Part shown: in pieces, positions 21,968-34,338 of the stretch
Layout: each line of letters begins with the position of its first letter
Position numbering within the stretch: the stretch's first letter is position 1
Assembly (NCBI GenBank): GCA_028286395.1
Contig: JAQBRS010000005.1
Location: forward strand, 186,001-250,000
Direction of reading: 5' to 3'
DNA from: Candidatus Saccharimonadota bacterium
Lineage (GTDB): Bacteria > Patescibacteriota > Saccharimonadia > Saccharimonadales > Saccharimonadaceae
DNA: 64,000 nt
The notes under the pieces: generated by a model
Told to the model about the DNA's origin: nothing
The model's database searches: none
What the model saw: the letters and a program-made list of their open reading frames with translations, nothing else
Program-made: the position numbers and the translations under genes

Positions 21968-23794
21968 CTATTCCTCCGGGCTCGCAATGCCCACCGCCCC
22001 CGCCTTGCTCGAGAGCAACCTTCTCAGTGCCAAACCTGAAAGTCCCGCAATAAATATCGAGCCAATCACAATAGGAAGTCGGTAATCCGCCTTTACGCCC
22101 GCTACACTTTGTGGCGTGAGTTTCGTTCCGCCATTCGAAACATCACTATTCGTCGTCGCCCCCAATACGGCGGTGTCAACCGGTGCAGCGTCGGCCAATT
22201 GCCGACTATCGATGACGGTTACTTTATGGGTATTCGTCGCTGCCCCACTCGTGCGTGGAGTGAACGTGATAACCCCCGGCTGTGGTGGCACGTCTGCCGA
22301 GCTACTGCCCGCAGGGGGGTTGCCGTAACTTGTATCAATCCCGAAACTTCCGTACCAACTATTAAATACATTAATAAAGAGGACGCCGAACCAATCACTT
22401 ATGCCAAGCTGACTTCCTGATATGTTCGCAATGTTTGCTGATGCCGTTGCGTTTCCACTCATGGCGTTTCCAGCGAGCGTGTTCGTCTGGACAATTGCGT
22501 TCCCTGATTGTGAGGTCAAGGTAATGTTATTCGTAATCGCATTTGTTGACTGAGCAGTCACGGTGAGGTCTGGCTTGGTAGCGGCGTCAGAGACAACACC
22601 ACTCCCGATCATGGCGGAGGTTGCGCCACTCGGTGCATCGACGATAACGCCAACCCATTTACCCAGCACATTCACAAATACCAGCAAACTATCTTTTGCG
22701 ACGATTGCATGCCCCGAAAGATTAAAAATGACGACATTGCTATTGGCAGACCCAGAAGTTGCACCCCCTGCCGAAGTATTACCAAGAACAGCAGCGCTCC
22801 CACTCTGGGCGGCCAGCGCAATATTGTTCACGATTGTCTGCGTATCGGTCGTCTTTACTGTCGTCGTATCCGCTGGTGATGCTTGAAGCGTTTGATTGCT
22901 CGCAATCATTTGGGGAATAAAATCGGGTGCAATCAGAATATCGCCCTGAAGACTTCCATAAATATTAATCGTCCCAATGAATGATCGGTTCGCAGAAATC
23001 ATGGAGTTGAGAATATTCATCACATTCGCCACCGTGTTTGCCGAACCCGTTGTCGCGTCTCCTGCACTGGTATTTCCACTGACTACCGCATTACCACTCG
23101 TCGCCTGGAGGTTGACGTTATTGGTAAGTGTATTCGTTTGTGTTGCAGAAACGGTCGTACTCGCCCCACTAGCTCCAGTCGCGCCTGACTCGAGCATTGA
23201 CTTCAATAACAATGGATATAACATAATATCGCCCGTAACGTCACCCATGACATTGTACGTAAAATTAGCGACCTTCTGATTATCACCAGCCGCTATTACC
23301 GAATTCACAGTATTGATAAGCGTCGCAGTTGAAGCCGCATCACCTGTTGTTGCGCTTCCAGCCACTGTGTTATTGGCCACGGTCGCGTCACCTGTTGTTG
23401 CCCCGGCTGTTACCTGATTATTCACGTCAACGCCACTAGTTATAGAGGTTGTCACCGTTGAAGTTGGAGAAGCTGACTGATCAGCGGGTGCGCCCGAAAG
23501 ACTTGTGGGTGTTTGATCAGTAACGGTTGGAGACACGACGGGGGAAGGTACTGCCTCATAGACACCAGTTGTTGGATTATATTGCCATACATTACTGTCC
23601 CACATTCCCGTTGTTGCATTGTACGTATAGGTCGGCTTTGGCGGAGTTGGTGGAGTAGTTTGCGTATCAACACCGTCAGTCGTTGGCGTTGCAACTGGTG
23701 TGTCGGCCATCGCCATGAGGGGATAGCCAGCCGCCAGTAGTAAGGCCGCAAGGTAAAGGAGTGATGTCCGAACGATTTTGAATAATCTACGCAT
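21968..23794 (-). CDS. Large repetitive secreted protein with C-terminal anchor
   Basis: 608 residues. Signal peptide at about 8-30, a Pro/Thr segment with YNATTGMWDSN and YNPTTGVYEA, then at least four copies of a unit of about 80-90 residues whose core reads N-x-I/V-x-L-x-x-x-SGNA-x-V-x-x-NT-x-AG-x-A-x-SG-x-A, each followed by a hydrophobic FVNVLGKW-like stretch. A C-terminal span (about 575-593) and a short tail anchor it. SD AAGGAGG lies 3-4 nt before ATG. The repeats resemble the downstream 196-residue protein. Likely a cell-surface scaffold; function unknown. Confidence 0.75.
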   Translation of the reverse strand: MRRLFKIVRTSLLYLAALLLAAGYPLMAMADTPVATPTTDGVDTQTTPPTPPKPTYTYNATTGMWDSNVWQYNPTTGVYEAVPSPVVSPTVTDQTPTSLSGAPADQSASPTSTVTTSITSGVDVNNQVTAGATTGDATVANNTVAGSATTGDAASTATLINTVNSVIAAGDNQKVANFTYNVMGDVTGDIMLYPLLLKSMLESGATGASGASTTVSATQTNTLTNNVNLQATSGNAVVSGNTSAGDATTGSANTVANVMNILNSMISANRSFIGTINIYGSLQGDILIAPDFIPQMIASNQTLQASPADTTTVKTTDTQTIVNNIALAAQSGSAAVLGNTSAGGATSGSANSNVVIFNLSGHAIVAKDSLLVFVNVLGKWVGVIVDAPSGATSAMIGSGVVSDAATKPDLTVTAQSTNAITNNITLTSQSGNAIVQTNTLAGNAMSGNATASANIANISGSQLGISDWFGVLFINVFNSWYGSFGIDTSYGNPPAGSSSADVPPQPGVITFTPRTSGAATNTHKVTVIDSRQLADAAPVDTAVLGATTNSDVSNGGTKLTPQSVAGVKADYRLPIVIGSIFIAGLSGLALRRLLSSKAGAVGIASPEE

Positions 23795-23829
23795 ATTCCT
23801 CCTTATTTAATGATGTCTCTGCCCGAGGA

Positions 23830-23856
23830 GGAGAGTAGCAAGGTGTGCTACCCTCC
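23830..23856 (-). other. Intergenic hairpin
   Basis: GGAGAGTAGCA pairs with TGCTACCCTCC with one mismatch. It lies between the two repetitive secreted-protein genes. No T-run, so it may be an mRNA 3'-end or leader structure rather than a classic terminator. Confidence 0.45.
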
Positions 23857-23884
23857 CGACAACTACCTTTTCGCGTAGTATGTA

Positions 23885-24475
23885 CTAGTTAGAAAGGGTA
23901 AGAATAAAGCTTGATGAGTTAGTGTTCGTCGCATCACCAGAGGTGGCACTTCCACCGGTTGTGTTATGACTTACCTCTGCACTCCCTGTTCGTGCAGACT
24001 GCTCATTTGTATTAGAGATGTAAATATCGTTATCGTTATTTACCTCTACTTTACTACTTGTGTTAGAGGTGACCTGGTTGTTTGAGTCTGGACCTGTGTT
24101 CGTAATAGTAGCCGTACCGCTACCACCAGAACCACTACCAGAGCCACTACCACCTGCTGGCATTGAGTTTGTTACTGCAACGGTCGCGCTAAGCGAGTTG
24201 TTATTCGCTGCGTTACCACTGCCCGCATTACCAGCAGTTGTGTTATTCTCGGCCTCCGCCTTACCACTTGAGGCGTGTTGTTCATTCTTGTTCCTCAAGT
24301 TAAGGTCGTTGTCATTATTGACCTCAACCTTACTCTTGTTCTCACTGTTAATTTGGTTGTTTGAGTCTGGTCCGGTTGTTCCAATTGTTCCCGAAGTTGC
24401 ACCTGCGAAACCCGCGAGGCCGACTACTAGTCCAACTGAAAGTACCCCAGCACCAACAATTTTTTTAAATTTCAT
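23885..24475 (-). CDS. Small repetitive secreted protein
   Basis: 196 residues. Signal peptide MKFKKIVGAGVLSVGLVVGL with likely cleavage after AGATS. The mature part is an internal duplication (about 33-100 and 125-190): TGPDSNNQ, SKVEVNNDND, NEQ-x-A-x-x-G-x-AE, NTTAG-x-A-x-SG. The two halves are joined by a Gly/Ser linker. The NTTAG-SG core matches the repeat of the 608-residue protein. There is no anchor, so it is released or bound non-covalently. SD AAAGGAGG is present. Confidence 0.75.
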   Translation of the reverse strand: MKFKKIVGAGVLSVGLVVGLAGFAGATSGTIGTTGPDSNNQINSENKSKVEVNNDNDLNLRNKNEQHASSGKAEAENNTTAGNAGSGNAANNNSLSATVAVTNSMPAGGSGSGSGSGGSGTATITNTGPDSNNQVTSNTSSKVEVNNDNDIYISNTNEQSARTGSAEVSHNTTGGSATSGDATNTNSSSFILTLSN

Positions 24476-24524
24476 ATACTGTTCCTCCTTTAATTTATAG
24501 TGCTCTACCTCGGGTGTGCCCGCC

Positions 24525-24555
24525 CGACCAAGAGGAAGTGGGACACTCTTGGTCG
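24525..24555 (-). other. Intergenic hairpin
   Basis: CGACCAAGAG and CTCTTGGTCG, perfect 10-bp arms with an 11-nt loop. It lies between the membrane protein at 24585 and the small repetitive protein. No T-run. Confidence 0.5.
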
Positions 24556-24584
24556 ATCGGCCACGAGTTCCCGCTATGTATATG

Positions 24585-25061
24585 TCATTGTCCTATCTCA
24601 CGAACAGTATTTGAGGACGAGCTCACACTCACGTCTATCGATGAAGTTGACTCAGCATTTGTCGATCCACTAGACTGCATGCTCACATTTATTGATGCAT
24701 TGCCATTTTCTGTAGAAACTTCCTTATGAATCGATCCATCCTTCGGAATTGGGACACTGTTTCCGTTGATAGATACTTTCGTCTGAGAGACGGGTACTGG
24801 CGTAGCCTCAGCTTCAGTAGTTTCGAGCACGTTTGTCACTAATGGCGCCACGAAATTGTCTGGCGCAGTCACTGTATCCTTTACACTATTGCTCACCCAA
24901 GCTCCAGAAAATATATACACGTAGGATATAACGAAGAGGGCAAATACCGTCGCATAGAAAACGATGATCACAAAGATGAGAAATCGAGGCCACGTATCAT
25001 TACGGTAAAACAAAGTATAAAACATCTTACTTTGCATACTCTTGAATACATTCCCACGCAT
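24585..25061 (-). CDS. Single-pass membrane protein with Ser/Thr-rich external tail
   Basis: About 158 residues starting MRGNVFKSMQSKMFYTLF. One span at about 27-52 (RFLIFVIIVFYATVFALFVI), then an external region with KVSINGNSVPIPKDGS and a Ser/Asn-rich end. GAGG stands 5 nt before the ATG at 25061, which I prefer over upstream codons. It lies just ahead of the repetitive secreted proteins and is probably part of the same surface set. No family recognised. Confidence 0.6.
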   Translation of the reverse strand: MRGNVFKSMQSKMFYTLFYRNDTWPRFLIFVIIVFYATVFALFVISYVYIFSGAWVSNSVKDTVTAPDNFVAPLVTNVLETTEAEATPVPVSQTKVSINGNSVPIPKDGSIHKEVSTENGNASINVSMQSSGSTNAESTSSIDVSVSSSSNTVREIGQ

Positions 25062-25184
25062 ACAAACCTCGCTTTCGTATACACACGTGACCGACTCTAC
25101 GTAGAGCATACATCAGCAAAAGCTTGGTCGTATATGAGAATTCTCTCACATAACCCTATATTGATAATTACGAGAGGATTAACC

Positions 25185-26555
25185 CTATGGGAAAATGATT
25201 GACTTAAGAAGAAGGACCGCAAAGATTCCCATGACTGAGAATGCGACCCAAAGACCAAGTTTTGACCAACGTCCACTCTTGTACTCACCCATCACGTCTT
25301 CGCGACTTGAAAGCTTGGCGATGAAGTAGATCAGAGGCACTGCGGCGATACCGTTAAAGACAGCCGTGAAGATCAGTGCGCGGATTGGATCGAGACCGAT
25401 GAAGTTGAATGACAGTCCAATCAGTGTACCAATGATAATAATGAGGTAAAACTCACGAGCTTGCTTGAATTTACGGAACAGCCCTTCTTTCCAGTTAAAC
25501 GTTTCAGAGATCGCATATGAAGAAGATCCTGCAAGCACAGGCACGCTCATCAGACCGATACCGATGATACCGATGGCGAAGATCACTTTTGAGATATAGC
25601 CAGCGTTCGGAAAGCCTTGCACAAGTGGTTCGATTGCCTTTGCGGCATCAGCGGCACTGGTGATATTCGTTATTCCGTGCGCGCCAAGGACCACCGCACC
25701 AACGACGATAATGAACCAAGCAGTGACGTTCGAAAATAACATCCCGACGGCGGTGTCGATACGAAGTCGACGGATGTATCGTTTTGAAATCTTTGGAATA
25801 CCGCCCTTTTGCGCAACACGATGTTCAGCGACTTCATCTTCAACCACATTACTCGCCTGCCAAAAGAACAGATACGGAGAAATAGTTGTTCCAAAGATCG
25901 CCACAATCATATAGAGAAACTCCGTATTGAACTCAAAATGAGGAATCAGCGTCGCTTTCAATACCTCTGGCCACGGCACATGAACAAGAAAAGCAGTGAT
26001 AAAGTATGAGAACAACGCAAGCGCTAGCCACTTCAATAGACGAACATAGACACGATACGGCACGAAGATCTCGAGCAGGATCATAATCACTGCAAACGCA
26101 ACTGCCAATAAAGAGAATGGTACTCCTGGGATAAGAAGTTGCGTGCTGGCAGCCATTGCACCAATGTCAGATCCGATGTTAAACGTATTTGCCGCAACAA
26201 CCAGCAAAATAACGGGAAATAGAATCTTTTTAGAGTAATGCTCCCGAATAATCGCAGCCAGGCCTTTACCCGTGACTGCCCCTACCCTCGCACAGGCCTC
26301 CTGTACGGCAGTCATAAGCGGATACGTGAAAAGCATCGTCCACGGCAGCTGGAGGCCAAATTGAGCCCCTGCTTGCGAGTAGGTGGCAATTCCCGATGGA
26401 TCATCGTCTGCGGCGCCCGTCACAACGCCAGGACCAAGAATACGCATAAAACGACCAAAGCCTTTTTTGTTTTTCGAAGCACGTCGGAACGCCGCAGGCG
26501 GATTTAGGATCTCCTCCTCAATATCGCGGATCTGTTCGTCAGGATTTTCAATCAT
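25185..26555 (-). CDS. NRAMP-family metal transporter with altered metal site
   Basis: About 456 residues, 11 spans. The NRAMP fold is clear from ILGPGVVTGAADDDPSGIAT in span 1 and FGTTISPYLFFWQASNV in span 6. The canonical DPGN is DPSG (Asn lost) and the canonical A-x-x-MPHN of span 6 is T-x-I-SPYL (Met lost). The family normally imports Mn or Fe with protons; these changes resemble NRAMP-related carriers of other divalent ions, possibly Mg. I start at ATG 26555 because TTGACA-17-TATGCT lies upstream and ends 7 nt before it; the earlier ATG lies inside the -10. Confidence 0.85.
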   Translation of the reverse strand: MIENPDEQIRDIEEEILNPPAAFRRASKNKKGFGRFMRILGPGVVTGAADDDPSGIATYSQAGAQFGLQLPWTMLFTYPLMTAVQEACARVGAVTGKGLAAIIREHYSKKILFPVILLVVAANTFNIGSDIGAMAASTQLLIPGVPFSLLAVAFAVIMILLEIFVPYRVYVRLLKWLALALFSYFITAFLVHVPWPEVLKATLIPHFEFNTEFLYMIVAIFGTTISPYLFFWQASNVVEDEVAEHRVAQKGGIPKISKRYIRRLRIDTAVGMLFSNVTAWFIIVVGAVVLGAHGITNITSAADAAKAIEPLVQGFPNAGYISKVIFAIGIIGIGLMSVPVLAGSSSYAISETFNWKEGLFRKFKQAREFYLIIIIGTLIGLSFNFIGLDPIRALIFTAVFNGIAAVPLIYFIAKLSSREDVMGEYKSGRWSKLGLWVAFSVMGIFAVLLLKSIIFP

Positions 26556-26562
26556 TAGGACA

Positions 26563-26591
26563 AGCATAATGCGCCTAATTCAAAGTGTCAA
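26563..26591 (-). promoter_or_regulatory. Promoter TTGACA-17-TATGCT of NRAMP-like gene
   Basis: Perfect -35 and good -10 at the ideal spacing; leaderless start at 26555. Confidence 0.75.
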
Positions 26592-26618
26592 CTCGTGGTC
26601 AAATCTATAGAGTGAAGC

Positions 26619-28124
26619 CTAGTAGCCCGAGAAATGATCTTTCTTGATTCGGGTCCGTGGTACGCCGATAGAACTCAGTTGAGAACGGGTCGCGTCAACC
26701 ATGGCATTCGGGCCAGAGATATAGAAGAAGCGCTCGTTATAGTCTGGGACAAGTTGAGAAATCAGCTCAGCATTTACTTGTGAATGAACGTATCCGTCCT
26801 CAGTCGTTTTCGGAGTTGTGACAATTCGTGCCAGCTTCACACCGTACCTCTCTGCTTGCTTGAACTCTTCAAGGTAAGCAAATTCGCTAGGATCACCAAC
26901 TGCATATATCACGACAATGTCTGTGGCGAGTTGCATATCGGTCACATACTTCACCATGCTTCGAAATGGCGTCACGCCAATTCCACCAGCGATGAAGACC
27001 AGCTTCCTCCTTTCATTGCCCTTAAGCACAAAGTTACCCGCTAATTGACTGGCATAGATAGAGTCGCCTGGCTTCATGGTACTCATTGTGTACTTGAACG
27101 TACTCGAAGGGTTATAAAACTTTACGCCAAGTTGAACCGTGTCTTCGGTTGGGGACGATGCAATCGTGAACGATCGGCGATTACCCCTAAAGTCGAGGGC
27201 AACGTGATCAAGTGTCCACTCCATATACTGTCCCGCCATGAAGCCAAAGCGCTCGGTCGGAATAAACACATAGTTCATGACGCGATCAGAAATTTTTTGT
27301 ATCTCTTTAAGACGTAATTCTACCTTGAACTTCGGCGATACGATAAAGGCATAGATGTTACCTAGCAGTAATGCCACTTCCGGGTAAATGGTCAATGGGC
27401 CAATCTTCCATGCTTCGACATAGAGAACGGCAATAATCACTCCGAAAATCACTTGCTGCAATCGACGCGGCGGCATCGTCGCAGGTTCTGTCAGCATGAT
27501 AGTTGATAAGAAAATTAATGGTGACGCAATCAAAATGCTCTGAATGATCGTAGGGTTCAACGTGCCGTCGATCAGGAATGTCATCAATTGCAACATCAGT
27601 GCGGTTCCCACGAACGCGAAGAATAAGCTGAACTTTCGAATCTTTCGGACGACCAGCAGTCCGAAGATAAGCGTAATCGGCCATAACGCCGCACTACCGA
27701 CCCACCACGTGGTAATCTGTAGGTTTAAAATCCCTACCAATGCAACAGCAAAGGCGGCTGGGTTAAAAATGTGTCTGCCTTTCCAGGCGATCAGATACTT
27801 GGAACTGCTTGCAAGTCCACCGACGAGTAACGTAATGACGACCTCTAGCCCACTTTTAGGTGCAGGAAAGATCAAAAAGATAATGAATGTCGTGATTGCC
27901 CATGATTCAGTGTTTAGTGGGCGACGCCAGATTTTCGAGAATATAAACTCAGTGACAAAAGAAGATGTCGCGAGTAGCAGTAAGGAGAGCGTCATCGTCG
28001 AAGGATCCATTGATATTCGACCGGTCGCGGCGAAGATGATTCCCAGTGCGCTAATTATCCCTAACCCAAACGCAACTAGCTTATACATCGTAATCTTGTT
28101 CAAAATAGGATCAAGGATATTCAT
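26619..28124 (-). CDS. RnfD/NqrB-like membrane domain fused to ferredoxin-NADP reductase domain
   Basis: 501 residues. Residues 1-270 are polytopic and carry NqrB/RnfD features: GRHIFNPAAFAVALVG and STIMLTEPATMPPRRLQQ. I do not see the SGAT flavinylation site of full-length NqrB/RnfD. From about 275 comes an FNR-type reductase: RRSFTIASSP (FAD binding), VFIAGGIGVTPFRSMVKYV (NAD(P) site), FYISGPNAMVD and a terminal DHFSGY. Predicted to move electrons from NAD(P)H through FAD to the membrane domain and then to the FMN-binding protein encoded just upstream in the same direction. Confidence 0.85.
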   Translation of the reverse strand: MNILDPILNKITMYKLVAFGLGIISALGIIFAATGRISMDPSTMTLSLLLLATSSFVTEFIFSKIWRRPLNTESWAITTFIIFLIFPAPKSGLEVVITLLVGGLASSSKYLIAWKGRHIFNPAAFAVALVGILNLQITTWWVGSAALWPITLIFGLLVVRKIRKFSLFFAFVGTALMLQLMTFLIDGTLNPTIIQSILIASPLIFLSTIMLTEPATMPPRRLQQVIFGVIIAVLYVEAWKIGPLTIYPEVALLLGNIYAFIVSPKFKVELRLKEIQKISDRVMNYVFIPTERFGFMAGQYMEWTLDHVALDFRGNRRSFTIASSPTEDTVQLGVKFYNPSSTFKYTMSTMKPGDSIYASQLAGNFVLKGNERRKLVFIAGGIGVTPFRSMVKYVTDMQLATDIVVIYAVGDPSEFAYLEEFKQAERYGVKLARIVTTPKTTEDGYVHSQVNAELISQLVPDYNERFFYISGPNAMVDATRSQLSSIGVPRTRIKKDHFSGY

Positions 28125-28147
28125 AATATGTATTTTAATCTAATTAG

Positions 28148-28654
28148 TTAGGCTTTTGCTTGATTCTGGATATCGTTAACGGCACTGTTAAACCCATTCG
28201 TCGTATCTGATGCACCGGCAACAGACGAGAGGTTCAATCCATCAATGTTTTTACCGACAACGTAGCTTTTATAAGCTGATGCGAAGTCTTCTTGGAAGAT
28301 TTGTGATTCACGATCGTTCTCGCTATTGACGACCGTTGAGTCTGCGACGACACCAGACTTCACCGTCAGTGTCACTTTAATGTCTTCGTAGCCATGTGGG
28401 ACATAGTATTGGTTTGAGGCTGTGTAGGTGCCGTCCTTATACGTCGTGGAGCTCGCTGAAGTTGACGGAGTCGTTGTCGTAGATGTCGTTGCGCCGATTG
28501 AAGCTGACGTTGTTTGATTTGCAGTCGTTGCAGTCTGTTGCTTCTTCTCATTTGCGGATACGGCTGACGCGATCGTCACGAGGACAACAGCAATAATAAC
28601 TACGATACCTGAAGTTACTTTTAATGCCATGTTACTTGGTTTTTCGGGGTACAT
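28148..28654 (-). CDS. FMN-binding-domain protein, membrane-anchored
   Basis: 168 residues. N-terminal span at about 10-33, a Thr/Ser-rich linker of about 35 residues, then an FMN_bind domain: YKDGTYTASNQYYVPHGYED, VKSGVVADSTVV, and the expected flavinylation region SVAGASDTTNGFN (family consensus S/T-GA-S/T-x-S/T). The domain should sit outside the membrane with covalent FMN, if an ApbE transferase exists elsewhere. It is followed 23 nt later by the RnfD-FNR fusion, which fits a two-gene extracytosolic electron-transfer unit. TATAAG ends 7 nt before ATG. Confidence 0.8.
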   Translation of the reverse strand: MYPEKPSNMALKVTSGIVVIIAVVLVTIASAVSANEKKQQTATTANQTTSASIGATTSTTTTPSTSASSTTYKDGTYTASNQYYVPHGYEDIKVTLTVKSGVVADSTVVNSENDRESQIFQEDFASAYKSYVVGKNIDGLNLSSVAGASDTTNGFNSAVNDIQNQAKA

Positions 28655-28661
28655 TTGTATC

Positions 28662-28667
28662 CTTATA
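28662..28667 (-). promoter_or_regulatory. -10 TATAAG of FMN-binding protein gene
   Basis: Ends 7 nt before ATG 28654. No strong -35. Confidence 0.4.
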
Positions 28668-28745
28668 CTTATCGATTTTGCTTATTGGCCTAGTGTACTG
28701 AGCAAACCTTAAAATAAGTTGTGAACTAAGACTATCGGCTATATA

Positions 28746-29780
28746 TTAGCGTCGGCTGCGGCCAACACTCAATCCACCGCTGTGGCTACGTGGAGCGTGG
28801 CGTTGACGCTTGCGTCGAACGAACCAGATGATGAAGATAACCAAGGCAATCAGAATGAGTAAAGCGATACCTGCACCGATCATGTAGCTAACGGGGATGA
28901 CCCAGAAGGTTCGAGTGACATCAACAGTTTGATTCTTAGATCCGTAAGTAAGGGTTGCGCTAACGGTATACTTCCCAAATCCATCAATCTTTTCGAGTGG
29001 AACGTTCCAGCGACGAGCACTGTCAGGAAGGATGACGTCGCGAGGAGTTTGATCGTTAAAATCCTTTTCGTAAACGATGTTCTTTCCTTTTTGGACGGTA
29101 ATCTTTCCGAATGGACCAAGCTGAACGCTTCCCTTATTTTCAAAACGGAAGGTAATGCCTAATCCGTCAGACGTCGTGAAGAGTGCGTTAGACTTACCGT
29201 TTTGTTGAATCGCAAACTCGGTCAAGTTAAGTTGCTCAACTGCATTACCCGGTACAGTCAATAAGATCAGTGAAGCGACACTACCACTTAAGTTAACCTG
29301 CGCGCCACCTTCGGGTGACGTTGGGGCAAAGCGAATTGCGCCGAAATATCCGCCAGCCTGAGCAGTTTTTGGAACGGTGATGATGACGCTGACAAATTTA
29401 GCCTTATTGGCAGGGATTGTTACCGCTGTGAGTGGTGTCATGAAGCGCTTGAGGCTATGGGTTGACGCAAACTTGTCAGCATCGAGAATAAGCGCCGGTG
29501 TTCCATTCTCGTCGCCAGAGATAAAGTCGTTCTCGATCGGGCTCACCAGAATGTCAGCGTTCGTAAGGTTCGTTACCGTTACCTGAACTGTCTTCGTCTC
29601 ACCTGGTAAGATTTCAATATCAGAACGTACAGGTGACACCTTAAGGGTGTTAGCGGTATTGTTTGTTGATGTAACCGCAAACGAATGCGAACTCGTCAAT
29701 AAAGCCATGGCAACAGAAAGCAGCACCGCAAACGCTACCATCATTCGGACGTTCACTTGAAGACCTCGTTTTACAAACAC
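28746..29780 (-). CDS. Surface protein with WxL-interacting-protein-like (DUF916-like) domains
   Basis: About 344 residues. Signal peptide near the start, then an Ig-like domain LKVSPVRSDIEILPGETKTV, a second region with GYFGAIRFAP, a C-terminal span (about 303-325) and a strongly basic tail (RRKRQRHAPRSH). The order (PG-x-x-x-x-V-x-V-N strands, then span) resembles DUF916 proteins that partner with WxL surface proteins in firmicutes. Start GTG at 29780: AAAGGGG lies 9 nt upstream and TTGCAA-16-TATTAT upstream of that. Paralogue of the protein at 32141. Confidence 0.72.
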   Translation of the reverse strand: MFVKRGLQVNVRMMVAFAVLLSVAMALLTSSHSFAVTSTNNTANTLKVSPVRSDIEILPGETKTVQVTVTNLTNADILVSPIENDFISGDENGTPALILDADKFASTHSLKRFMTPLTAVTIPANKAKFVSVIITVPKTAQAGGYFGAIRFAPTSPEGGAQVNLSGSVASLILLTVPGNAVEQLNLTEFAIQQNGKSNALFTTSDGLGITFRFENKGSVQLGPFGKITVQKGKNIVYEKDFNDQTPRDVILPDSARRWNVPLEKIDGFGKYTVSATLTYGSKNQTVDVTRTFWVIPVSYMIGAGIALLILIALVIFIIWFVRRKRQRHAPRSHSGGLSVGRSRR

Positions 29781-29853
29781 TATTGGTTTCCCCTTTAACA
29801 ATTACTTCCCATAATAACAGATGTGGTTACGTTTGCAAGCACACACATATAAA

Positions 29854-29886
29854 ACAAATATCCCCAAGACGGGGATATTTGTTTTT
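29854..29886. terminator. Bidirectional terminator
   Basis: ACAAATATCCCC, loop AAGAC, GGGGATATTTGT followed by TTTT; the other strand also ends in Ts. Serves the minus-strand gene that stops at 29901. Confidence 0.88.
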
Positions 29887-29900
29887 AAGAGATTGGAGAA

Positions 29901-31040
29901 CTAGAATTTACCAGTTGCGATCAAGCCGATGTCAGCTGAGTAGTTACCAGCTGGAGTGCTTGGGCCTACAGTTGCACCAAAGATCAAAGGTTGGTTCAAG
30001 TTAGTTGCTGTGTTACCCCCTGTGTTTAGGAATGGGTCACCATATGCGCTTGTCACACCAGTTGTATTGTCAGTCGCAGCATTTAACGTATAGGTAGATG
30101 CGTTGTAGCCCGACCCTGACGCAGCGGTGTATGCACCAGTACCTGTTGCAGTACCAAGCTTTACGCCGAATCCTGCAGTGTGATCAATGATACCAAGTTG
30201 CTGCACAGGCAAGATATAACATCCGCTAGGCTTACTCGAGTTAATGAGTCCACCACAATTGGTTGCGCTACTCTTCAAGTTAATCACTGCACCACCTGTC
30301 GCATTCGTTGACAGCTGTGTGTAGATTGTCCCTGTACTCGTAGTTCCGTCTACGAGAGACAAAACACCAGTACCTGGATCTTCACCGAGGCGTAGCGTAG
30401 GTGCGGTTACACCCGCGGAACAACCAGCTCCCGTGATTGCTGTACCTGATACACAGAAAGTCATGCTTTCAAGGACGGCACCAGAGACACCAACTGTGCT
30501 AGCAGTCGATAGTGCAACGCCTCCGTTATCAACGCTTCCAGTTTTTGAGCCTGTTGATGTATACAATAAAGCATTTGTATTTGTGTCATATGTCACAATA
30601 CGTGCGTAGAATGTCCCCACAGCAGTTGGGTTATGTAAACCTGTTAGTTCTACAGTCACCGTGTCCCCTGCTGAAATACCGCCAGTTGACGCGACAACAA
30701 CCTGATTCGCAGGTCCTGCGGTTGTTTTCGCGACAGTATAGCCTGAGGTTGTCGTTGTTGGTGTACCGACATCGAATCCACCAGGAGCGGTACATGACGC
30801 ATTAAGAATTGGGCTGTTGCTACAAAAATCTAGAACAAACGCACCGGCAGCACCAGTCGCTTTAAAACTTACTGTGTAATTTACACTCGACGCATCCGCT
30901 GATGAGCTACTCAAAGCAATCGAGCGCTCTGTCACGTCAGCAGCATTTGCTAACGCAGGCACAAAAGCACCAAGCAGAATTGCAGCTGCCGTGATGACGT
31001 AGCCTACCTTTTGGCGACTCACTAATACAAAAGATCTCAT
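29901..31040 (-). CDS. Secreted surface protein, C-terminal PAGxYS module
   Basis: 379 residues. Signal peptide with cleavage near ANAAD (about 33). Ser/Thr/Gly-rich beta protein with cysteine pairs (DFCSNSPILNASC, FCVSGTAITGAGC, NCGG and GCYI). The C-terminus reads TPAGNYSADIGLIATGKF, a module shared with the proteins at 33262, 34462 and 36281. No anchor is visible, so retention must be by binding. The promoter has TTGACA; SD AGAGGAAAAGGG precedes ATG. Confidence 0.7.
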   Translation of the reverse strand: MRSFVLVSRQKVGYVITAAAILLGAFVPALANAADVTERSIALSSSSADASSVNYTVSFKATGAAGAFVLDFCSNSPILNASCTAPGGFDVGTPTTTTSGYTVAKTTAGPANQVVVASTGGISAGDTVTVELTGLHNPTAVGTFYARIVTYDTNTNALLYTSTGSKTGSVDNGGVALSTASTVGVSGAVLESMTFCVSGTAITGAGCSAGVTAPTLRLGEDPGTGVLSLVDGTTSTGTIYTQLSTNATGGAVINLKSSATNCGGLINSSKPSGCYILPVQQLGIIDHTAGFGVKLGTATGTGAYTAASGSGYNASTYTLNAATDNTTGVTSAYGDPFLNTGGNTATNLNQPLIFGATVGPSTPAGNYSADIGLIATGKF

Positions 31041-31099
31041 TTCCCTTTTCCTCTACCCTCTTTTTAAAATATTTGTTTTCTTCTCCAAGATACGAGTTC

Positions 31100-31130
31100 A
31101 GTGTAGCATAATACCGCTCATGCTTGTCAA
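31100..31130 (-). promoter_or_regulatory. Promoter with TTGACA and extended -10 TGCTACACT
   Basis: TTGACA (31125-31130) and TACACT (31100-31105), 19-nt spacer compensated by the TG extension. It gives a leader of about 50 nt for the surface protein at 29901. Confidence 0.5.
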
Positions 31131-31169
31131 GTAGTTTCTCAGAAAAGTTTTCCACACCCGTTGAGGGGG

Positions 31170-32090
31170 CTACTTTTCCTCGAGACTATCGCGCTCTTTC
31201 AGCATCTTATTACGGAGTGAAACGATCTGGCTTCGTCGTCCTAACCAGTATGTTGGCGCAAGGAGCACCAGGGCTACAACGGCAGGAATCCATAAGATTT
31301 TTGTTGCCGCTGCTGTGTTTGTTTTATCAGTTGGCGCAGCAGTCGAGTCAACTTGACCGCTAGATACGGCGACCACCTGCAGGAAGGCGCTGACACCGTT
31401 CACATCGGTCACCTTAATGTTCACTTGATAGATTCCTGCTTTTTTATAGGTATGTGCAATCGTAATGAGGCCTGCCAAAGATTGGCTCTTCAATTCTGAT
31501 GGAGTTCCGTCTCCCCAATCAATGCTAAACGCGTATGGACCCGCGCCACCAGATAATTGTAAAGGCCAACTCAGCTCGCTCCCAGCTGGAGCAGATCGTC
31601 GTCCGTATGAGCTTGTAAGCGTCACTAGTGCTCCGAAAGCCGTAAAGTGCGTATCAGTATAGGTAACGGTCGCAATATTTGATGTAGGGCCAGCTTGTTC
31701 CAGATCATCGTACACGATTGCACTTAACTCGTTCGTTCCTGCGAATAGACTAATTTGCATCGTGAAGCTTCCACTCGCACATATTACTGAACCAGCCATA
31801 ACCCCGTTGTCATATACTTGAACCAGTAGTCCAGTTGTACAAATACCGGTCACAGCGGTTGGCGATGTCGTAAATGACGCCCCATTGCCCGGGGTAGTAA
31901 TCGTTGCCGCATCGGTTGGTGGTGCCTGAAGCTTTGTTGCTTCAAGCCCGTATGAACCCGGTTTAGGATCAGGGATTGGTATTTGGCTAATCGCCGAAGT
32001 TGGCTTTATAAAAACGAACAGCGCCAGGAGTAACATTCCGATCATAACCGGAAATACCCACTGAGCGCTGTGACGAATTTTATTTATCAT
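31170..32090 (-). CDS. PKD-domain surface protein with C-terminal anchor
   Basis: 306 residues. Signal/anchor at about 12-32, an Ig-like bacterial domain (TPGNGASFTTSPTAVTGIC and LFAGTNELSAIVYD), then a PKD domain (FSIDWGDGTPSELKS, HTYKKAGIYQVNIKVTDVNG). A span at about 265-283 and a charged tail follow. PKD and Ig-like modules are adhesion or spacer domains. TACAAT ends 11 nt before ATG. Neighbours are all surface proteins. Confidence 0.8.
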   Translation of the reverse strand: MINKIRHSAQWVFPVMIGMLLLALFVFIKPTSAISQIPIPDPKPGSYGLEATKLQAPPTDAATITTPGNGASFTTSPTAVTGICTTGLLVQVYDNGVMAGSVICASGSFTMQISLFAGTNELSAIVYDDLEQAGPTSNIATVTYTDTHFTAFGALVTLTSSYGRRSAPAGSELSWPLQLSGGAGPYAFSIDWGDGTPSELKSQSLAGLITIAHTYKKAGIYQVNIKVTDVNGVSAFLQVVAVSSGQVDSTAAPTDKTNTAAATKILWIPAVVALVLLAPTYWLGRRSQIVSLRNKMLKERDSLEEK

Positions 32091-32140
32091 GCTTATTGTT
32101 TATTGTAGCGTGATGACGCTAGTTACGAAAGGTATTGCAG

Positions 32141-33202
32141 TTAGCGACGATGTAAACGCTTTTTGGTTTTAGGACCGTAGAGTGCAGTGCGAATCTTTGT
32201 GACTACTCGCCAGACGACGAATGCGAGAGCAAGAATAACAATGGCGAGGACGATGATAAACCAGAGCGGTAGATACCAGAATGATGCAACTCCGGTGATT
32301 TCCTGTGTGTTGTTACCGTTTTGGCCGTAGAAGAGGTCAAGTGTTGCATGGTAATAACCTGGCCATAGCCCAGGGGAAGTACAGCTATTGGCCGACGTTT
32401 TTACTCCGTTAAAGTCGACTGTTTGCGGAGCAAGTTTGATACATGTCGTATAAGTTCGAGTTTGCCCAATAAGAGCTAACGACCCACTCGGGTTCACATT
32501 ATCAATAGTCTGCTCCCTACCGAACATGTCTCGTAGCTTGATGCTTCCGACCGGACTTTCAGTTACATTACCGTTGTTTTGTAGCGTATACCCGATGCTT
32601 TGGGGTTCTTTATCGGTGACAAACATATAGCCTGAAGTGTTACCATTTGCTGCTATATCGTAAGCGCCGAACTTCTTCAAGCTAAGATCCTCTTTGACCT
32701 TACCCGGGATAGATGTAAATACAAGTGTCGCGCCGGATGCACTCAAACCGACATTACCAGCTCCTGTTCCAGAACCAGATGAGTAAATAATGGCGCTATA
32801 GTAGCTACCTGCACCTTGGTTGGCGGGGATTGCAACGGAAATATTAAGTGTCTGACTGCTACTTGGTGGAATAGATACGTTCTGTGGAACGGTTAGAAAT
32901 GGCCTAAGAGACCAGGTTGTCTGCGGTGCACTCTCATCAAGCATCAACTTTGGTGTACCGCCATCATCCGTAAACGTAAAGTCAACGACACGAAGAGATA
33001 GCTCGAGAGGCTGTACGGAATCAAGATTGCGAATAACAATCGTATCCTTAACTGATTTACCAGGCTCAATGACGTAGTTTTTTTTTGGAACAATGCTCAG
33101 TGACGCTGATGATTGCGCATTCGCAGAGAGTGCAGGCAGTAAGTATGTCGCACCAAGTAGCATTGCTACAACGACGAGGACAATGCCTTTAAAGCGTTTC
33201 AT
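32141..33202 (-). CDS. Surface protein with DUF916-like domains, paralogue of 28746
   Basis: About 353 residues starting MKRFKGIVLVVVAMLLG. Signal peptide to about 30, Ig-like domain LSIVPKKNYVIEPGKSVKDT, second domain with GAGSYYSAIIYSSG, two cysteines in TTCIKLAP and NSCTSPG, then a C-terminal span and a basic tail (KTKKRLHRR). Same order as the protein at 28746, so a duplicated component. The start is chosen for the hydrophobic signal directly after it. Confidence 0.7.
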   Translation of the reverse strand: MKRFKGIVLVVVAMLLGATYLLPALSANAQSSASLSIVPKKNYVIEPGKSVKDTIVIRNLDSVQPLELSLRVVDFTFTDDGGTPKLMLDESAPQTTWSLRPFLTVPQNVSIPPSSSQTLNISVAIPANQGAGSYYSAIIYSSGSGTGAGNVGLSASGATLVFTSIPGKVKEDLSLKKFGAYDIAANGNTSGYMFVTDKEPQSIGYTLQNNGNVTESPVGSIKLRDMFGREQTIDNVNPSGSLALIGQTRTYTTCIKLAPQTVDFNGVKTSANSCTSPGLWPGYYHATLDLFYGQNGNNTQEITGVASFWYLPLWFIIVLAIVILALAFVVWRVVTKIRTALYGPKTKKRLHRR

Positions 33203-33261
33203 GTATTCTCTATAACCTCTCACATTTACTTTGTTTTATAAGTATAAGCCGTATTGTATCA

Positions 33262-34338
33262 TCAAAATCTACCGCTGGCTATGTACGTAATCGTTGTGGT
33301 ATACACACCGGCATGCAGGCTCGGACTAGAGTTTAAAATATAGCTAACGGTAAATTTCTTCATAAGACTCACGTTCGGTGAATACGCAACGACATCACCT
33401 GATACATACTTGTATTGATTTGGGACTCCGTAATCGGGTGATGTTACTGCGTTCGCCCACGTCCCCTGGGGATTTATGCCCACACTCGGCTCGTTGTTGG
33501 CAACCAAGTTGATGCCAAACTGATCAGTCCCCGGCACGCTTGGAGTTGGTGCTGTCGGTGAATCAATTGTATGCGTTCCCGCAGCAAGGGGCGAGCCATT
33601 TGCTGTAATCGCAAACCCTCCAGTTGCGTTGGTGCCTACGGCCATCTGCGACTGGGCCGTTAGCGTCGACTTTGCACTAAGTGTTCCCATATCGGTGTAG
33701 TAAGTGTCATCCGTGCCTATGCAATCGTCTTCAACCACTCTTGCAGCACAAAATATCAACATCGGCGGTACTTGCGTCTCGATGACCGTGCCAGTCTGCA
33801 CCTGTCCCCTTACCGACCCAAAATCGATTTGCGACCCCGATCCATCTATAGAGCCGAGACTTTTCAGACGAATCGAGAAAGCTTGATTCGCTTGACTGGG
33901 GTTGACGATGTTATCAAGCTTATAGGATGACGCAGAACCTCCCATAATCATGCTTGGCAGGCGCGTCAAAATAATATGATTCGGAGACTTGTTTAAAATC
34001 GCGAAGCCAGTCTCACCCGTCTGGGCCGTTAAGGCGGCATTTGATACGTCGAGGCCAGGAGGTGTCACACACGGCATGTATGGAATCGGATCGATACAAA
34101 ACAACATATCTAATGAACCGACTGGCTGGGGTGTCATGTATTGCAACGAAACGGTGTACGAGGTCGTAGCACTTGGTTCACTACTCTGCATATATAGCCC
34201 GCGGGTCTCAAACCTTGTGTCTGCTGATACAGGTACGATAAAGATAAACAACGCCAAGAATAAAGCGAGTAGTTCCTCGGGTACAATGCTACGAAAGTTA
34301 AAGAGGTGTATATGAAATCTAAACAACCTGTGTTGCAT
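33262..34338 (-). CDS. Secreted surface protein, C-terminal AGVYTTTI module
   Basis: 358 residues. Signal segment at about 22-39 (LLALFLALFIFIVPVSA), then a beta-rich body with several cysteines and the conserved stretch SVPGTDQFGINLVANNEPSVGI ... YKYVSGDVVAYS shared with the protein at 36281. It ends AGVYTTTITYIASGRF like its neighbours. TACAAT ends 7 nt before ATG. Likely a paralogue in a family of co-encoded surface subunits. Function unknown. Confidence 0.7.
   Translation of the reverse strand: MQHRLFRFHIHLFNFRSIVPEELLALFLALFIFIVPVSADTRFETRGLYMQSSEPSATTSYTVSLQYMTPQPVGSLDMLFCIDPIPYMPCVTPPGLDVSNAALTAQTGETGFAILNKSPNHIILTRLPSMIMGGSASSYKLDNIVNPSQANQAFSIRLKSLGSIDGSGSQIDFGSVRGQVQTGTVIETQVPPMLIFCAARVVEDDCIGTDDTYYTDMGTLSAKSTLTAQSQMAVGTNATGGFAITANGSPLAAGTHTIDSPTAPTPSVPGTDQFGINLVANNEPSVGINPQGTWANAVTSPDYGVPNQYKYVSGDVVAYSPNVSLMKKFTVSYILNSSPSLHAGVYTTTITYIASGRF

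Follow-up and report, generated by a model that had tools for sequence, protein, structure and literature searches.

A two-gene unit in the window, i.e., in the whole stretch of 64,000 nucleotides that was analyzed, most likely (with a probability of roughly 0.8) forms an electron-export module of two subunits. The cytosolic FNR domain of its larger protein would use NAD(P)H to reduce FAD, a flavin held by the NqrB/RnfD-like domain of the same protein would carry the electrons across the membrane, and FMN covalently bound to Ser149 of an anchored outer domain would receive them and pass them to an acceptor outside the cell. The attachment of this FMN would be performed by an ApbE encoded about 101 kb away. 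We infer the electron transfer itself, as well as the flavins, the direction of flow, the topology and the acceptor. The unit belongs to the NQR/RNF-like systems, a kind already known from the literature, as is its occurrence in CPR. For these, a two-subunit complex whose membrane domain is devoid of the flavinylation Thr was proposed to pass electrons in one direction, from NAD(P)H to an acceptor outside (PMC8238504, PMC11334425), and they are reported mainly from Actinobacteria and CPR (Meheust 2021, PMC8238504; Huang 2024, PMC11334425). The path from NAD(P)H to an outer flavin suggested by an earlier, sequence-only reading of the unit is the same as the published one and thereby gains support, and its statement that flavin-based systems of this general kind are described across bacteria holds, with the correction that they bear the name NQR/RNF-like and were already known from CPR.

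Both genes are encoded on the minus strand in head-to-tail order (Table 1), and their coordinates and both open reading frames had been given correctly. The source genome comprises 852 kb in five contigs and is 99% complete; on contig coordinates, the fusion is located at C5:212622-214124. Of the genomes searched, that of UBA6040 (G006) is the closest relative, with 91% identity in the fusion. A pattern search of public genomes confirmed 523 relatives, of which the best 80 were kept as loci. The unit is adjoined by genes for a WxL-interacting-type protein upstream and an Nramp-family transporter downstream. A run of secreted-looking proteins surrounds it (window 21968-34338, minus strand), including one WxL-interacting (peptidoglycan-binding) and one PKD domain protein, while several others in this run gave no Pfam match.

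Table 1. Features of the unit, its surroundings and a related reading frame, with the basis of each assignment (window positions unless a locus is named).
Feature	Position	Strand	Basis and remarks
NqrB/RnfD-like membrane domain fused to FNR reductase, 501 aa	26619..28124	-	ORF, Pfam, profile, model
NqrB/RnfD-like membrane domain, residues 1-262	27339..28124	-	Profile, PF03116; His118 invariant, without cysteine or flavinylation motif
FNR domain (FAD and NAD(P)H), residues 267-501	26622..27326	-	PF00175, VIA-align, motifs; without 2Fe-2S domain
FMN_bind-type protein, 168 aa: N-terminal membrane anchor, Ser/Thr linker, FMN domain	28148..28654	-	ORF, profile, model, adjacency
Predicted membrane anchor, residues 14-32	28559..28615	-	Model helix (low-confidence N-terminal part) and hydropathy of L027; orientation predicted
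FMN domain, residues 70-168	28151..28447	-	pLDDT about 91-97 per block of ten
Ser149 of AGAS-DTT, predicted FMN acceptor	28208..28210	-	Conservation in aligned partners
Promoter-like TTGACA-17-TATGCT before the Nramp gene	26563..26591	-	Sequence scan
Nramp-family transporter, downstream neighbor	25185..26567	-	PF01566, E 8e-82
Leaderless FMN_bind-like ORF	L152:6518-6844 (G000:C1:20517-20843); also L153:4472-4798	+ (L152)	Next to TerC/DUF475 gene in G000

That one protein unites an NqrB/RnfD-like membrane domain with an FNR reductase, as originally proposed, is borne out by Pfam, profile and model alike. The reductase half is matched by PF00175 (E 1.8e-13, over the cut-off), features the motifs RRSFTI and GGIGVTP, and agrees with an NADH oxidoreductase model at E 2e-28, though under that model's cut-off. 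The AlphaFold model of the fusion reached a mean pLDDT of 91.6, with structural matches of the FNR half to NqrF and related reductases, including a VIA-align Z of about 25 to NqrF FAD domains. Since the VIA-align rows mainly represent the FNR half, with no NqrB or RnfD chain among the rows shown, the assignment of the membrane fold is based on PF03116 and on the match of a membrane-half profile to RnfD (8ahx_D, E 2.2e-5). PF03116 was matched by 24 of the 33 membrane halves scanned (best 4e-14), including that of the window, for which the values were under the curated cut-off both for the whole protein (E 4.9e-5) and for the membrane half alone (E 6.8e-6); a phmmer search with the membrane half alone found no solved structure. 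The fusion of the window contains no cysteine, and the family alignment (68 rows) features no Cys column at >=50% and one invariant His, which makes a conserved Fe-S cluster or bis-His haem unlikely and flavins the likely carriers. On these residue patterns, a flavin-only electron path is favored and the unit appears to be free of iron. The flavinylation motif [ST][GA]A[ST] is absent from the membrane halves of the window and of its sister locus L027, and it occurs in that of 5/80 relatives (best 80 of 523) in differing contexts.

The adjacent gene had been read as supplying an anchored FMN-binding domain, and a profile match, the model and the adjacency confirm this assignment, albeit PF04205 itself found no match in the protein. 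The NCBIfam model PplA matched at E 5e-7, which is far under that model's cut-off, whereas a profile built from 47 partners matches the FMN_bind crystal structure 8p2a with E 9.5e-18 and 3o6u with E 9e-4. The compact domain, whose C-terminal part reads VAGASDTTNGFNSAV, was modelled at a pLDDT of about 95, and the best Foldseek matches were the FMN_bind proteins 3o6u (E 5e-3) and 8p2a (E 1.3e-2), both weak. A conserved Thr or Ser in the FMN-binding motif, on which the sequence-only reading had staked its case, is kept in all 47 aligned partners (Ser in 32, Thr in 15) and preceded by Gly two residues before in 47/47, a count which leaves out 10 of 57 rows, L053 and L072 among them. In the partner of L053, Arg replaces the motif Gly and the Thr is kept. 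The N-terminus carries an anchor in CPR and a lipobox in several Actinobacteria; the hydropathy of the anchor was taken from the first 70 residues of the sister partner in L027, which is 93% identical. Such an anchor suggests export of the partner. An FMN-type partner adjoins the fusion in 72 of the 80 public loci (best 80 of 523), 46 of them recognized by profile and 26 by the motif only, and thus the pairing is not due to chance. No such partner was found beside the fusion in 8/80 loci (best 80 of 523), L072 included. In this locus from Wildermuthbacteria, the gene before the fusion (L072:5542-5991) aligns as a cupredoxin-like sequence and not as FMN_bind, which points to a possible exchange of the carrier that takes up electrons outside.

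The sequence-only reading further depended on the presence of ApbE in the genome, and one copy was indeed detected (E 2.6e-41, C5:111109-111837), outside the cluster of the fusion. Accordingly, the description of the system as just two proteins stands for the unit, but not for its function, as ApbE is needed as a third protein encoded elsewhere. Within the genus, the full-length fusion is present in 6 of 17 genomes, and exactly those six carry ApbE. Among 198 genomes of the family, uncorrected for kinship and with four genomes bearing contig-edge or partial fusion fragments counted as fusion-less, ApbE occurs in 39/40 genomes with the full fusion vs 20/158 without it, and the partner (profile match, E < 1e-10) in 33/40 vs 10/158. 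ApbE adjoins the fusion in 37 of these 40 genomes, the exceptions being G000, G006 and G028, and in G028 both ApbE and the profile-detected partner are absent. The gene order FMN_bind-ApbE-fusion recurs and was found in four genomes of the genus; one of them, G012, contains this operon plus a second pair which resembles that of the window and is likewise without ApbE. After its ApbE, the window genome carries the same surface-protein gene that in G012 and G013 comes after the fusion of the full operon. The simplest reading would be a loss of the old operon's partner and fusion in the window lineage, with the ApbE of that operon retained for the second pair. Besides, the family contains a second kind of ApbE (L135-L144), also leaderless, which in several genomes is encoded close to a 350-400 aa FNR-like reductase.

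The sidedness of ApbE poses a real puzzle and is the part worth following. The ApbE reading frame (L001) begins MMESSLKHTFSFEAIGT and features no N-terminal export signal. Among 49 ApbEs adjacent to fusions, 47 possess the recognized core motif, and in 44 of these 47 the core is preceded by no more than 25 residues, even if the longest ORF is assumed. According to a 12-residue hydropathy measure, which is not a trained predictor, none of the 49 exceeded 1.97 in the stretch examined, whereas 41/46 partners exceeded 2.0; as controls, Nqr-linked ApbEs of Providencia and Leisingera, which carry lipoboxes or lipoprotein signals, reached 2.71 and 3.02 when scored in a similar way. The ten best-scoring ApbEs of the family are also leaderless, as are the PepSY-linked ApbE of Paracoccus and that of Deinococcus, and thus leaderless ApbEs, as judged from their predicted N-termini, are not unique to this system. 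Most characterized ApbEs are described as lipoproteins in a review, which also gives the example of a cytosolic ApbE modifying a soluble fumarate reductase in Klebsiella (PMC12052999). That the ApbE of the window genome is without a signal peptide weighs against the proposed module; candidate routes to flavinylation of the exported domain are cytosolic attachment before export and an unconventional export of ApbE. Because the transferase is devoid of an export signal and acts on a substrate anchored outside, it is tentatively proposed, at less than even odds, that the partner receives its FMN while still in the cytosol or in the course of export, and that the flavin-bearing chain then crosses the membrane. 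If true, no FAD exporter would be needed in these gene-poor cells, and a second route to extracytosolic flavoproteins would exist.

Export of the folded flavoprotein by Tat was considered and rejected, as 12 of the 40 fusion genomes have no TatC and the N-termini, inspected by eye, display no regular twin-arginine pattern. In the source genome, TatC and the ApbE ORF are separated by about 2.1 kb, and TatC was detected in 28/40 fusion genomes vs 43/158 others (198 of the family, uncorrected for kinship). Additionally, a leaderless FMN_bind-like ORF of 101-108 aa with an AGSSLTT motif, lacking both anchor and linker, was observed in G000 and G012, and judging from its sequence it is a possible cytosolic target of ApbE; a phmmer search with this mini protein found no solved structure. 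As an explanation of the leaderless ApbE it was discarded, since no such ORF was detected in the four remaining genomes of the genus that carry ApbE. On a cytosolic ApbE with an exported target, a literature search in titles and abstracts yielded nothing on point. The unit offers a clean case of a flavin transferase and its target apparently on opposite sides of the membrane, and a filter that would remove leaderless ApbEs may partly explain why CPR had looked poor in flavinylation.

Regarding its role, the unit had been placed in an organism with little respiration, which is doubtful because the genome encodes subunit I of a haem-copper oxidase next to a CyoA-like gene, and because the oxidase goes with the unit across the family (33/40 fusion genomes vs 33/158 others among 198, uncorrected for kinship). 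This association would fit a respiratory entry, in which the fusion passes electrons from NAD(P)H to quinone for the oxidase, either directly or through the FMN domain. In Saccharibacteria 47-87 (G003), cyoA and cyoB lie divergently beside an FMN_bind-ApbE-fusion operon (L097:1589-4530), and an electron-transport role was proposed for such a Saccharibacteria fusion (Starr 2018, PMC6031116). Yet the oxidase is missing from 7 of the 40 fusion genomes, cyo genes occur in the examined flank of only 1/80 loci (best 80 of 523), and the same article describes a separate NADH dehydrogenase while finding no complete quinone pathway, so that this role seems rather unlikely. The link to oxidase-bearing genomes would also suit an outer domain serving envelope repair or defence, in which thiols, peroxides or oxygen at the surface would receive the electrons, and one DsbA/thioredoxin and one cupredoxin were present as redox neighbors among 45 upstream genes scanned. 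A recurrent partner enzyme was found neither among these 45 nor among the 32 downstream neighbors scanned, which renders this function improbable. Of the latter, TM2 domains occurred in four and ABC, methyltransferase or similar domains in two to three each, with no recurring function beyond these among the 32.

An extracellular ferric reductase feeding the downstream Nramp transporter with ferrous iron was weighed likewise. The Nramp gene lies 51 bases downstream of the fusion on the same strand, and also directly downstream in UBA6040; moreover, VIT iron transporters are reported near six related clusters (PMC8238504), and on a Mesorhizobium plasmid, a VIT gene and the operon are 0.6 kb apart. 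However, the metal site of the window Nramp reads DPSG and TTIS and hence does not feature the Fe/Mn signature DxxN plus A/CxxM; the resulting DxxG-TxxS is close to the DxxG plus TxxA/T described for the magnesium group (PMC8806188), which leaves a role in iron uptake unsupported. A promoter-like site precedes the Nramp gene, such sites being no commoner in the region than by chance (10 vs 7.6 expected, sd 2.8), and an Nramp-related gene was present in only 3/80 examined flanks (best 80 of 523; L027, L049 and L084). On these grounds iron uptake via this neighbor was set aside, a ferric reductase of this kind is held to be a poor prospect, and the Nramp gene is probably not part of the unit.

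The unit also appears to have spread between phyla, as far as a midpoint-rooted tree of 84 fusions suggests. The window fusion groups with its UBA6040 counterpart and the second G012 copy (100/99). A single clade (100/100), attached among Saccharibacteria copies, unites seven actinobacterial fusions, the actinobacterial loci (L093-L105) belonging to Microbacteriaceae and Cellulomonadaceae. The fusion of a Mesorhizobium plasmid sits inside a group otherwise consisting of Kaiserbacteria, Parcubacteria, other CPR or unnamed bacteria (100/99). From these placements, transfers between CPR and both the Actinobacteria and the Mesorhizobium plasmid, in either direction, would be the natural reading. 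The plasmid, pB2-1-1, carries the full FMN_bind-ApbE-fusion operon (L156:3078-7509) with VIT and cytochrome b genes beside it. Together with the leaderless operon ApbEs facing an exported substrate and the association of the unit with haem-copper oxidase, the apparent inter-phylum transfers go beyond what had been noticed from the sequence alone.

Compared with known systems, the unit shares with the Na+-NQR and RNF complexes the homologous membrane and reductase domains and an FMN domain of a like general kind. It differs from them in that no other Nqr or Rnf subunit gene occurs among its immediate neighbors, and in that its reductase is without a 2Fe-2S domain and its fusion without cysteine. 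The Listeria PplA/FmnB system resembles it by an anchored outer flavoprotein made by an ApbE-type enzyme, in line with the weak PplA match; FmnB, however, acts outside the cell, where it is described to require a FAD exporter (PMC9973259), while the ApbE of the window genome is leaderless. The suggested comparison with RnfD-FNR fusions of other CPR led to related fusions in CPR and Saccharibacteria, among them the NqrB/NqrF-like fusion of Ca. Teamsevenus rhizospherense, which likewise unites both domains in one Saccharibacteria protein, but for which an FeS domain is reported and Na+ transport suggested (Starr 2018, PMC6031116). With the NQR/RNF-like systems, the unit has in common the two subunits, the fusion of an NqrB/RnfD-like to an NAD-binding domain, the FMN_bind partner, ApbE and the membrane domain without a flavinylation site, whereas its ApbE is encoded outside the cluster and its partner has diverged too far for PF04205. 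In this form, it would represent a flavin-only electron-export unit, apparently without need for iron or haem, in a very small genome.
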